Assembly: GCF_002886185.1 (NCBI RefSeq)
Contig: NZ_KZ614146.1
Location: 935,234 to 999,233 of the forward strand
Reading direction: 5' to 3'
DNA: 64,000 nt
From: Salipaludibacillus neizhouensis
GTDB lineage: Bacteria > Bacillota > Bacilli > Bacillales > Salisediminibacteriaceae
Both the position numbers and the translations under genes were made by a program. Below the pieces are notes generated by a model, which worked only from the letters and a program-made list of their open reading frames with translations, searched no databases and had not been told where the DNA came from. This document shows, piece by piece, positions 31,438-36,972 of this stretch; position 1 is the first letter of the stretch; every line of letters begins with the position of its first letter.

Positions 31438-31467
31438 TTGACAAATGCCAAAAAAGTATGATAAAAA
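31438..31467 (+). promoter_or_regulatory. Probable sigma-A promoter of the beta-glucoside operon
   Basis: -35 TTGACA at 31438-31443; the best-spaced -10 is TAAAAA at 31462-31467 (18 bp spacer). The -10 is poor, and TATGAT at 31457-31462 is too close, so the -10 assignment is uncertain. Confidence 0.5.
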
Positions 31468-31469
31468 TT

Positions 31470-31485
31470 AAGTAATCGTTTTCAA
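31470..31485 (+). promoter_or_regulatory. cre site (CcpA) of the beta-glucoside operon
   Basis: AAGTAATCGTTTTCAA fits WTGNNANCGNWWWCAW with one mismatch (A for T at position 2). Located just downstream of the promoter and upstream of the RAT, the usual place for roadblock-type catabolite repression. Confidence 0.65.
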
Positions 31486-31495
31486 TTGCATACAA

Positions 31496-31580
31496 GGATT
31501 GTGACTGTTCGGCAGGCAAAACCTAAGTTTGTAGTGGAATTTCCCTTTTAGGAATATTCTATAACAACGTTAGGTTTTTT
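31496..31580 (+). promoter_or_regulatory. RAT1 antiterminator site and overlapping terminator 1 (LicT/BglG type)
   Basis: The RAT at 31496-31524 begins GGATTGTGACTG and ends CAGGCAAAACCT, the consensus for LicT/SacY/BglG RNA targets. Its last bases also form the left arm of a terminator: AAAACCTAA (31518-31526) pairs with TTAGGTTTT (31570-31578), with additional inner pairs (TTTGT/ACAA, TGGAAT/ATTCTA), followed by a T run. RAT folding and terminator folding are mutually exclusive. Confidence 0.92.
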
Positions 31581-31627
31581 TATTTCTGTTCCTGCAAAAG
31601 CTAATAATATTTCGGAAGGTGAGGTGG

Positions 31628-31819
31628 ATAAGGATAATAAAAAAGGTCCTAAATAGCAATATATTTAGTGCAAAGAATGAATTGGATCATCAGGAAATAG
31701 TCGTTACGTGGGAAGGATTGCTTTACAACTATAAAATTGAATCAGATGATATTATTAAAGAAATGTCGAAATATAAGTATTTTTGTCATGAAAGCGTTGA
31801 CACTTGTTTAGAGAAGTAA
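31628..31819 (+). pseudogene. Vestigial BglG/LicT-family transcriptional antiterminator (RNA-binding domain only, start lost)
   Basis: The segment reads RIIKKVLNSNIFSAKNELDH then QEIVVTWEGLLYNYKIESDD, colinear with the co-antiterminator (CAT) RNA-binding domain of LicT (which begins M-x-I-K/I-K-K-V-L-N-N-N). The position of the initiating ATG is ATA at 31628-31630, preceded by a perfect GGTGAGGTGG ribosome site; a GTG nine bases upstream (31619) is inside that site. The frame ends after about 63 codons, so both PRD domains are absent. Position between two RAT-terminator elements is exactly that of bglG in the E. coli bgl operon. Alternative: a deliberately short CAT-only protein from the upstream GTG. 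Confidence 0.7.
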
Positions 31820-31852
31820 TATACTAAGCTTACAAATTAAATATCCTTCGAA

Positions 31853-31940
31853 GGAATGTTACCACTTAGTGGGCATAACCTGATCTGATTTTGAGAACAC
31901 ACAATTTGTGTGCGTTTCAAATCGGATCAGGTTTTTATTT
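31853..31940 (+). promoter_or_regulatory. RAT2 antiterminator site and overlapping terminator 2
   Basis: RAT-like element 31853-31881: begins GGAATGTTACCAC and ends GTGGGCATAACCT. Relative to RAT1 the stems have changed on both sides (TTG/CAA to ATG/CAT; ACTG/CAG to ACCAC/GTGG), so pairing is preserved. It overlaps a long terminator: AACCTGATCTGATTTTGA (31877-31894) pairs with TTTCAAATCGGATCAGGTT (31917-31935), inner ACACACAA/TTTGTGTG, then TTTTATTTT. It controls entry into bglP. Confidence 0.85.
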
Positions 31941-33921: not shown

Positions 33922-33931
33922 GTGTTTTTAA

Positions 33932-33965
33932 TCAGAAGGAAGAGTATAACAAATCTTCCTTCTGA
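33932..33965 (+). promoter_or_regulatory. Intercistronic hairpin between bglP and the first GH1 gene
   Basis: Perfect 12 bp stem TCAGAAGGAAGA (33932-33943) / TCTTCCTTCTGA (33954-33965), loop 10 nt, without a U-run. More like an mRNA stabiliser or processing site setting different levels of permease and hydrolase than a full terminator. Confidence 0.65.
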
Positions 33966-33991
33966 TAATTTATTATCAAGGAGGGGTTACT

Positions 33992-35428
33992 ATGAAAAAT
34001 TACATATTTCCAGAAAACTTTTTATGGGGTGGTGCCATTGCCGCAAACCAAACAGAAGGTGCTTATCTAGAAGACGGAAAAGGATTAACTCTTGTTGATC
34101 TCCTTCCCACGGGACAAAAACGATGGGAAATTATGATGGGCAAGCTCGATAGTTTGGAACCCAAAGAGGGAGAGTTTTATCCATCCCATGAAGCAATTGA
34201 TTTCTATCATCGCTATAAGGAGGATGTTGCATTATTTGCTGAGATGGGCTTTAAATCTCTTAGAGTATCCATTTCATGGTCACGCATTTTTCCGAACGGG
34301 GATGATGAAACACCGAATGAAGCTGGTTTAAAATTCTACGATCAATTATTCGATGAATTGTTAAAGTTCGGCATTGAACCAGTTGTAACGATTGCTCATT
34401 TCGATGTGCCAGTTAACTTAATCAAAACATACGGTAGCTGGAGAAACCGTAAACTTGTAAAGTTTTTTGAAAACTATGCAACAACTATTTTAGAGCGATA
34501 CAAAGATAAAGTGAAATATTGGATGACATTTAATGAAATTAATATGCTGCTGCATTTACCGTTCGTAGGAGCTGGGCTCGTTTTTAAAGAGGGAGATAAC
34601 GAATTACAGATCAAATATCAAGCGGCACATTACCAGTTGGTTGCAAGTGCATTAGCGGTAAAGGCGTGTCACAAGATTATTCCGGAAGCGAAAATTGGTT
34701 GTATGCTCGCTGCTGGTTCTACCTATCCTTATACATGTCATCCAGATGACGTTTTTGATGGGATGGAAAAAGACCGGGAATCGTTCTTTTTTATTGATGT
34801 GCAATCAAGGGGCGCTTACCCTGGCTATGCAAAGCGATTTCTTAAGGAAAACAATATTAGTATCAATATGGAAAAAGCAGATGAGGAACTTCTCAAATCT
34901 CATACTGTTGATTATATAGGATTTAGTTATTATGCAAGCCGTTCAACGAGTACAGATCCAGAAGTATTAAAGAACCAAACGAGCGGAAATATCTTTGGTT
35001 CCGTTGAAAACCCATATTTAGAAAAATCTGAATGGGGATGGACGATTGATCCTAAAGGATTTCGAATTACAGCGAATCAATTATATGATCGATATCAAAA
35101 GCCATTGTTTGTGGTAGAAAACGGATTAGGTGCGGTGGATGAAATGAGTGAAAACAGAGAAATTCACGATGATTACCGTATCGAGTATTTACGAAAGCAT
35201 GTTGCTGAAATGGGCGAAGCAATGGAAGATGGTGTCGAGATTCTTGGTTATACTAGCTGGGGACCGATTGATATTGTCAGTGCATCTACAGGAGAAATGA
35301 AAAAGCGATACGGCTACATTTATGTAGATAAAGATAACGAAGGAAAAGGTTCGTTGAATCGAACGAAAAAGAAAAGCTTTTATTGGTACAAAAAAGTGAT
35401 TGAGTCAAATGGTGAGCAGATCGATTAA
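33992..35428 (+). CDS. bglH: Glycoside hydrolase family 1 6-phospho-beta-glucosidase (first copy)
   Basis: 478 aa (beta/alpha)8 enzyme that splits the phosphorylated aryl-glucoside delivered by BglP. The acid/base Glu is E182 in WMTFNEINM and the nucleophile E376 in [13 protein letters not shown]-terminal [20 protein letters not shown] is the GH1 signature. The C-terminal [26 protein letters not shown] with the KKKSF region fits the 6-phospho subgroup. RBS CAAGGAGGGG. Second gene of the operon. The neighbour at 35563 is a close paralogue. Confidence 0.9.
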
Positions 35429-35459
35429 TTAGTTAGTTCAAAAAAGTAGAAGAAGCAAT

Positions 35460-35483
35460 AGGCGGAGACTTGAGCGTCCGCCT
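35460..35483 (+). promoter_or_regulatory. Intercistronic hairpin between the two GH1 genes
   Basis: AGGCGGA (35460-35466) / TCCGCCT (35477-35483), loop 10 nt, followed by only TTAGCG, so a poor terminator. Either attenuates or stabilises. Confidence 0.5.
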
Positions 35484-35562
35484 TTAGCGAATTCGAGCAC
35501 AGTCCTGATTAAAAGAATAATCTTTGATAGATAGATGATAAATTTTTAGAAGGAGTGATTTG

Positions 35563-36972
35563 ATGAGTGAAATTAAAAAGTTTCCTGAAGGATTTTTATG
35601 GGGTGGTGCAGTTGCTGCCAACCAATTAGAAGGTGCATACAAAGAAGATGGAAAAGGACTTTCAACGGCAGACGTTTCTCCAAAAGGAATTATGAGCCCA
35701 CCCGATTTCTCCATGAAGGATTTCAATTTATACCATGAAGGAATTGATTTTTACTATACTTACAAAGAAGATATTGCTTTGTTTGCTGAAATGGGATTTA
35801 AATCCTTTCGTTTTTCGATTGCCTGGACTCGCATTTTCCCTAATGGAGATGAGCAAACTCCAAATGAACAAGGCTTGGAATTCTATGAAAAAGTAATCGA
35901 TGAATTAGTAAAATATAATATTGAGCCTGTCATTACCATTTCTCATTATGAAATGCCATTAGCTCTTGTGAAAAACTATAGTGGTTGGAAAAGCCGAAAA
36001 TTGGTTGCATTTTATGAAAATTATGCGAAGACCTTGTTTACTCGTTTTCATAAAAAAGTGAAATACTGGATGACATTTAATGAGATTAATGTCGTTATGC
36101 ATGCGCCATTTACTGGCGCAGGCCTTCTTTTTGAAGAAGGAGAAAAGAATGATCAAGACATTTACCAATCCGCACACCATCAATTTGTTGCAAGTGCATT
36201 TGCCGTTAAGGTTGGACATGAGATCAATCCTGATCTTCAAATTGGTTGCATGATTGCTTCCATGCTTACGTACCCTTATTCATCGAAACCGGAAGACATG
36301 TTGGCTGCTGTGATGCAAGATAGAAAAACGTTGTTCTTTTCCGATGTTCAGGCAAGAGGATATTATCCTTCCTACATGAAGAACTACATAGAGGAAAATG
36401 ATATTAATATTGTTATGGAAGATGGAGATCTTGAGACTCTTCAGGAAAATACGGTCGATTATATCGGCTTTAGTTATTACATGTCTTTTGTAGCAAGTAC
36501 GGAACCCGAACATTTAAAAGCACAAACATCTGGCAACCTTTTAGCAGGCGTAAAAAATCCTCATTTGAAAGCTTCAGAGTGGGGATGGCAAATTGATCCT
36601 GTTGGTCTTAGAACAGTAAGTAATCAACTGTATGATCGATATCAAAAGCCGTTATTTATTGTGGAAAATGGTTTAGGAGCAGTTGATAAAGTCGAAGAAG
36701 ATGGCTCAGTTAATGATGATCACCGAATCGACTATTTACGAGCGCATATTCAAGAAATGAAAAAAGCAATTGCCGATGGAGTAGATATTATAGGATACAC
36801 ATCATGGGGACCAATTGACTTAGTAAGTGCATCAACAGCAGAGCTCAAAAAACGGTACGGATACATTTACGTGGACCGTGATAGTAAAGGACAAGGTTCG
36901 AATAAACGAATCAAGAAGAAAAGTTTTAATTGGTATAAAAATGTTATTGCAACAAATGGGGAAGAGTTATAA
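35563..36972 (+). CDS. Glycoside hydrolase family 1 6-phospho-beta-glucosidase (second copy)
   Basis: 469 aa paralogue of the preceding enzyme: [20 protein letters not shown], acid/base E174 (WMTFNEINV), nucleophile E368 ([12 protein letters not shown]) and [15 protein letters not shown] ending. Start at ATG 35563 behind AGAAGGAGTGATTTG. Differences are spread over the whole length with the active site kept, which looks like duplication with substrate specialisation rather than redundancy. Ends the operon. Confidence 0.9.

Follow-up and report, generated by a model that had tools for sequence, protein, structure and literature searches.

The LicT/bglPH system of Bacillus subtilis uses an antiterminator of the CAT-PRD-PRD type, and LicT is held inactive by its enzyme II (EII) and released when a beta-glucoside is imported. 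In operons of the Escherichia coli t1-bglG-t2 type no promoter is known between the antiterminator gene and the second terminator. According to PMC1489936, the E. coli bglGFB operon has two ribonucleic antiterminator (RAT)-terminators around the antiterminator gene, followed by the EII and glycosidase genes, and in Streptococcus mutans a promoter-RAT-terminator unit for bglP has been mapped 3' of an intact licT, with no RAT described there before licT. The Clostridium acetobutylicum bglGTH operon, as presented in PMC12628678, has RATs before an intact bglG and before bglT, and an internal promoter was excluded. Here we analyse a beta-glucoside operon of Salipaludibacillus neizhouensis (GCF_002886185.1, NZ_KZ614146.1) in a 64-kb stretch of DNA, called the window below, whose positions serve as coordinates. 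The order on its + strand is a promoter-like site P1 with a near match to the catabolite-responsive element (cre), RAT1-terminator, licT remnant, RAT2-terminator, bglP, and two glycoside hydrolase family 1 (GH1) genes (Table 1); the RAT pattern, folding and Pfam place the elements from RAT1 to the second GH1 gene where an earlier note on this DNA had put them. That note regarded the layout as exactly that of E. coli, which it is not: the gene between the two terminators is broken, a second promoter-like site with a cre (P2) separates what is left of licT from RAT2 and has counterparts in orthologues of the same genus, and RAT2 belongs to another class than RAT1. The promoter and RAT before bglP resemble the S. 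mutans arrangement apart from the state of licT and the RAT before it, and the two RATs are shared with C. acetobutylicum, where the antiterminator gene is whole and the internal promoter absent. Sequence comparisons show that licT has decayed here, and we consider it rather probable that bglP is transcribed mainly from P2 through RAT2, which would be opened by a LicT protein encoded elsewhere (LicT2) that is itself held by BglP.

Table 1. Predicted features of the beta-glucoside operon (window positions)
Feature	Positions	Strand	Basis
P1: TTGACA 31438-31443, weak -10, near-cre 31471-31484	31438-31484	+	read from sequence; similar DNA in loci L028, L136, L137
RAT1, class A (31496-31523), with overlapping terminator	31496-31580 (end approximate)	+	pattern, folding; orthologous RAT-A in L136/L137
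licT remnant, ~36 CAT codons, start position ATA	31628-31736	+	Pfam, comparison with orthologues, profile scoring
Former licT-bglP intergenic DNA; first part is the tail of a chance ORF ending at 31819	31737-31852	+	alignment to orthologues
P2: cre 31789-31802 over -35 TTGACA 31797-31802, 17 nt, -10 TATACT 31820-31825	31789-31825	+	scan, conservation in G001/G007
RAT2, class B (31853-31880), with overlapping terminator	31853-31940 (end approximate)	+	pattern, Rfam below threshold, pair tabulation, folding
bglP, beta-glucoside phosphotransferase system (PTS) EIIBCA	31981-33921	+	Pfam EIIB, EIIC, EIIA; 74.5-74.6% identity to G007/G001
GH1 glycosidase gene	33992-35428	+	Pfam GH1
Second GH1 glycosidase gene	35563-36972	+	Pfam GH1

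Two genomes of the same genus, G001 and G007, carry RAT1, a licT of 283 codons, RAT2, bglP (74.6 and 74.5% identity) and GH1 in this order, so that the comparison proposed in the earlier note finds a full licT at this very place. A CAT search of eight genomes of the genus gave 26 matches, of which 25 fall in open frames with 282 codons or more; only that of the window is short (81). The window thus carries a damaged version of a licT that its relatives have kept whole. The open reading frame (ORF) 31619-31819 has 66 codons from a GTG and 64 from the ATA that occupies the orthologous start position, the change from ATG to ATA having been correctly read from the sequence in the earlier note. Its CAT_RBD match reaches 28 bits (Pfam, cut-off 25), and neither the Pfam scan of the frame nor a search of the genome shows a PRD here, again as claimed. 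A BglG/LicT-type remnant is thus present, but it is smaller than the whole CAT domain that had been supposed. Under a profile built from 79 antiterminators of the loci retrieved (members were required to show a CAT-like start motif) the whole ORF scores 21.5 bits, its first ~36 codons 18.4 and its tail 1.0. When 31737-31836 was aligned to the licT-bglP intergenic DNA of G001, G007 and locus L028 the scores were 70.0, 71.5 and 37.5 (equalled in 0, 0 and 10 of 1000 shuffles), compared with 24.0, 20.0 and 29.5 for licT codons 36-75 of G001, G007 and LicT2 (241, 702 and 58 of 1000). The final ~27 codons of this frame therefore correspond to intergenic DNA of the orthologues and not to licT codons 36-75; a deletion has fused the gene at about codon 36 with DNA close to the former licT stop. 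By codon-position counts the remnant has 14-18 identical residues of 35-36 with seven relatives, and functional pairs have 25-39 of 40 or 27-29 of 39; these counts fit recent decay but are too small to support a test of rates. Decay of such genes is not peculiar to the window, as a further CAT fragment, interrupted by three in-frame stops, is found at G051:C24:17735-17854, in a genome that also has a RAT of the RAT2 kind.

The earlier note had suggested that this remnant, translated from GTG 31619, might act as a constitutive antiterminator. The frame from that GTG is open and the isolated CAT domain of LicT does antiterminate constitutively, but the GTG falls inside the ribosome site, only ~36 CAT codons are left, and the remnant has Trp where 79 of 79 relatives have Gly, Glu at the next position (Arg in 39, Lys in 31, Cys in 7, Ser in 2) and Thr one position before the Gly (Met in 61, Ile in 16, Val and Leu in one each). 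We take the segment with the altered Gly to be the one that touches RNA in LicT. PDB matches of the remnant are also weak (E values of 0.009 and 0.025). With its CAT domain truncated and conserved positions altered, such an activator is very unlikely.

At both RATs the terminator stem shares the 3' arm of the RAT, so that RAT hairpin and terminator are mutually exclusive, and the folding of both RAT-terminator stretches is better than that of 200 of 200 dinucleotide shuffles (z of -3.49 for RAT1 and -6.23 for RAT2). Both have a RAT core with the two asymmetric internal loops at the positions known for such elements; in RAT2 the fourth base pair is swapped, and we refer to the two forms, defined by our own patterns, as RAT-A (RAT1) and RAT-B (RAT2). 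Both are predicted to be LicT/BglG-type attenuators, the gene content pointing to a CAT protein as their reader. Across the loci analysed there are 55 different sequences of RAT-A and 20 of RAT-B. In a looser tabulation of 85 distinct sequences, with this pair left unspecified, the fourth position and its partner are T-A in 60, A-T in 20, T-T in 4, G-C in one and A-A in none. There are two paired states, with both sides changed; RAT2 is a distinct class and not a worn RAT1. Within the bacterial family of the window the strict RAT-B pattern occurs at seven sites in 5 of 35 genomes, and the reversed control at none. Rfam gave no match in the window at the gathering threshold; below it, the RAT2 region scores 39 bits with rli52 (RF01480, gathering 70), too low for membership, and 35.6 with bglG-cis-reg (RF03530, gathering 80). 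The rli52 entry is annotated as a Listeria small RNA (sRNA), yet in the alignment of 31828-31926 the RAT-B core sits within its consensus, and the entry may be a RAT-terminator leader; a literature search for rli52 found no paper. A conserved ATATCCTT stretch precedes RAT-B in some loci only and was for that reason not counted as part of the structure.

A bglP search found 80 loci of 108 relatives, 38 of which hold a RAT-B by our pattern. Nineteen of these (Halalkalibacter loci, Shouchella clausii, Evansella and others) have a full licT and a RAT-A 5' of bglP, ten have licT 3' of bglP, and nine have no antiterminator gene within the DNA retrieved, which makes control in trans look usual at RAT-B loci. 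Two arrangements combine the classes differently: Heyndrickxia camelliae (L060) has RAT-A, licT, RAT-A and RAT-B in series, with three attenuators before one bglP (at -1314, -242 and -119 from it), and genome G030 has a tandem RAT-A and RAT-B (L142:5601 and 5749) before bglP with no gene between them, its licT lying on the opposite strand with its own RAT-A. A second RAT-B of the S. neizhouensis genome (L135:8301, - strand; G000:C1:2368300-2368324), with a strong terminator, precedes a 543-codon lipoprotein gene with Sde182-like domains; the promoter-like site there fits 10 of 12 positions, a score reached by 9 of 100 shuffles. Given this site, genes outside the PTS operon may also be under RAT-B control.

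The promoter-like site P2, which is absent from the earlier note, is put forward from its sequence and its conservation. Its -10 box ends 27 nt 5' of RAT2, it matches the promoter pattern at 11 of 12 positions (the top-scoring site in 31400-32000), and its score was reached by one of 100 shuffles at the window site (row L143). The sequence TGAAAGCGTTGACA (31789-31802) is the sole exact match in the window to the cre consensus. The same module stands at the equivalent place before RAT2 in G001 and G007. When 45 RAT-B sites were tabulated, 13 loci that repeat the same sites having been left out beforehand, 30 had the -35 box TTGACA (TTGACG in L040) inside a cre with no more than one mismatch. 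It is this conservation, not the cre match, that carries the weight, and bglP could be transcribed from the predicted P2 without passing RAT1. The promoter and cre that the earlier note placed before RAT1 fare less well: the TTGACA is there and the near-cre fits, by eye, 13 of 14 positions of the consensus, but no site at P1 passes the promoter scan.

With licT broken, RAT2 would have to be read by another protein, and a search of the genome for other licT/sacT genes, which the earlier note had called for, found four full CAT-PRD proteins: LicT2, LicT3, GlcT and a GlcT-like protein. The licT2 gene lies on contig C3 between two RAT-A sites, before a GH1 gene, and the first of these RATs differs from RAT1 in one base; the protein is of the same CAT-PRD-PRD type as B. 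subtilis LicT and matches PDB entries 1l1c, 1tlv and 1h99. The idea in the earlier note that the operon has lost its own antiterminator and may depend on a LicT elsewhere gains support from this. The licT3 gene follows a bglP-GH1 pair, and its operon leader (L020, ~13670-13700, - strand) has a RAT of another form, GGACATGTTACTG...CAGGCAGGATCC, before a terminator-like repeat. The genes for GlcT and the GlcT-like protein adjoin what we take, by resemblance, to be ptsG and ptsI. A further site that fits the RAT-A pattern, C3:145966, is probably a chance match, with no terminator seen by eye in the DNA that follows and no gene of antiterminator type.

Which of these proteins opens RAT-B is best judged from other genomes. 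Among 26 genomes of the 38 RAT-B loci seven have exactly two CAT proteins; in all seven the second is closest to GlcT and adjoins ptsG, and in six the bgl locus also has RAT-A. Since the only other CAT protein in these seven genomes is GlcT, RAT-B is probably read by LicT, and in this clade LicT proteins probably act on both RAT-A and RAT-B; an antiterminator dedicated to RAT-B, a candidate we had considered, becomes less plausible on the same count. G030, with its tandem RAT-A and RAT-B, has three CAT proteins, one of LicT type, one GlcT and one of the ptsI-side type; the grouping of its LicT with LicT2 speaks for LicT2 as the reader here. That LicT3, GlcT or the GlcT-like protein opens RAT-B of the window in place of LicT2 is improbable: these three further proteins are full-length, but the leaders of LicT3 and GlcT carry other RAT forms, and although LicT or GlcT could read RAT-B in the two-CAT genomes, the bgl setting favours LicT.

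The C3 operon itself argues for LicT2. Its gene order is that of loci in G007 and G001, with corresponding upstream genes, licT2, GH1 and downstream genes (licT2 identity ~80% over most of its length and 57% at the end, GH1 80%), except that in those two genomes licT2 and GH1 are separated by a bglP-like gene of 625 codons where C3 has 180 nt. Whether by loss on C3 or gain in the other two, the C3 operon has no EII gene, and BglP of the window thus probably controls LicT2. In gene content the C3 operon has a LicT without an EII and that of the window an EII without a LicT, and the two proteins may now form one working pair.

Comparison with the relatives shows that the operon descends from P1-RAT-A-licT-P2-RAT-B-bglP-GH1. 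A deletion took out licT between about codon 37 and the region of its stop and spared P2 and RAT-B, and further changes damaged what was left. Transcription of bglP would now start mainly at P2, where CcpA probably acts through the cre over the -35 box, and transcripts would end at the RAT-B terminator unless a LicT, most likely LicT2 of the C3 operon, bound RAT-B. Without sugar BglP would probably keep LicT2 inactive, and import of a beta-glucoside would free it.

Several observations weigh against this scheme. An exact cre is expected 0.32 times per window by chance and is found in 26 of 100 shuffled windows, which leaves the match by itself with little weight, and the four promoter-like sites in 31400-32000 compare with 2.8 in shuffles. 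The cre/-35 module is missing from 15 of the 45 RAT-B sites, including those of L028, L029, L030, L031 and L106. The operon of LicT2, here and in G001 and G007, has RAT-A only; the LicT of L142 (G030) groups with LicT2 at 93/82, below the star of the tool, and is on a long branch. The next bglP-like protein in the genome, in the LicT3 operon, is 36% identical and could serve LicT2 instead (others are more distant or partial). A rival reading is an operon that is silent or nearly so, with its own LicT gone, RAT-B unopened and its genes heading for decay: licT is broken, P1 looks weak, and the home RATs of LicT2 are of class A only. We consider silence unlikely, however, as bglP and both GH1 genes have intact frames with near full-length Pfam matches, RAT-B and P2 are well kept, and the genome has a second RAT-B unit. 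Transcription from P2 through a RAT-B opened by LicT2 and governed by BglP remains the reading we prefer.

Both flanks of the operon contain damaged-looking genes. At 30688-31415, 5' of it, two overlapping frames, the second with a weak STAS match, together resemble one broken PAS-STAS protein, and directly 3' of it a 67-codon frame (37218-37421, - strand) resembles a truncated LOV/PAS domain, its NCRF motif being what we take as the sign of this family.

Most of what is seen here is ordinary decay and rewiring; what is added here is P2, the RAT-B class and the possible cross-dependence of two operons. A wider proposal is possible rather than probable: two paralogous beta-glucoside operons would have become mutually dependent, with an EII/antiterminator pair shared across them, and RAT-B, as a separate class with its pairs swapped on both sides, would separate control of the structural genes from licT autoregulation by means of its own cre-promoter. 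If true, a matched sensor and regulator would have been split between operons after gene loss and would still work. The findings also point to RAT-B as an RNA switch class that recurs in Bacillaceae, frequently follows a promoter overlapped by a cre and overlaps an Rfam sRNA entry, and the natural RAT-A/RAT-B pair would make the specificity of LicT for its RATs directly testable.

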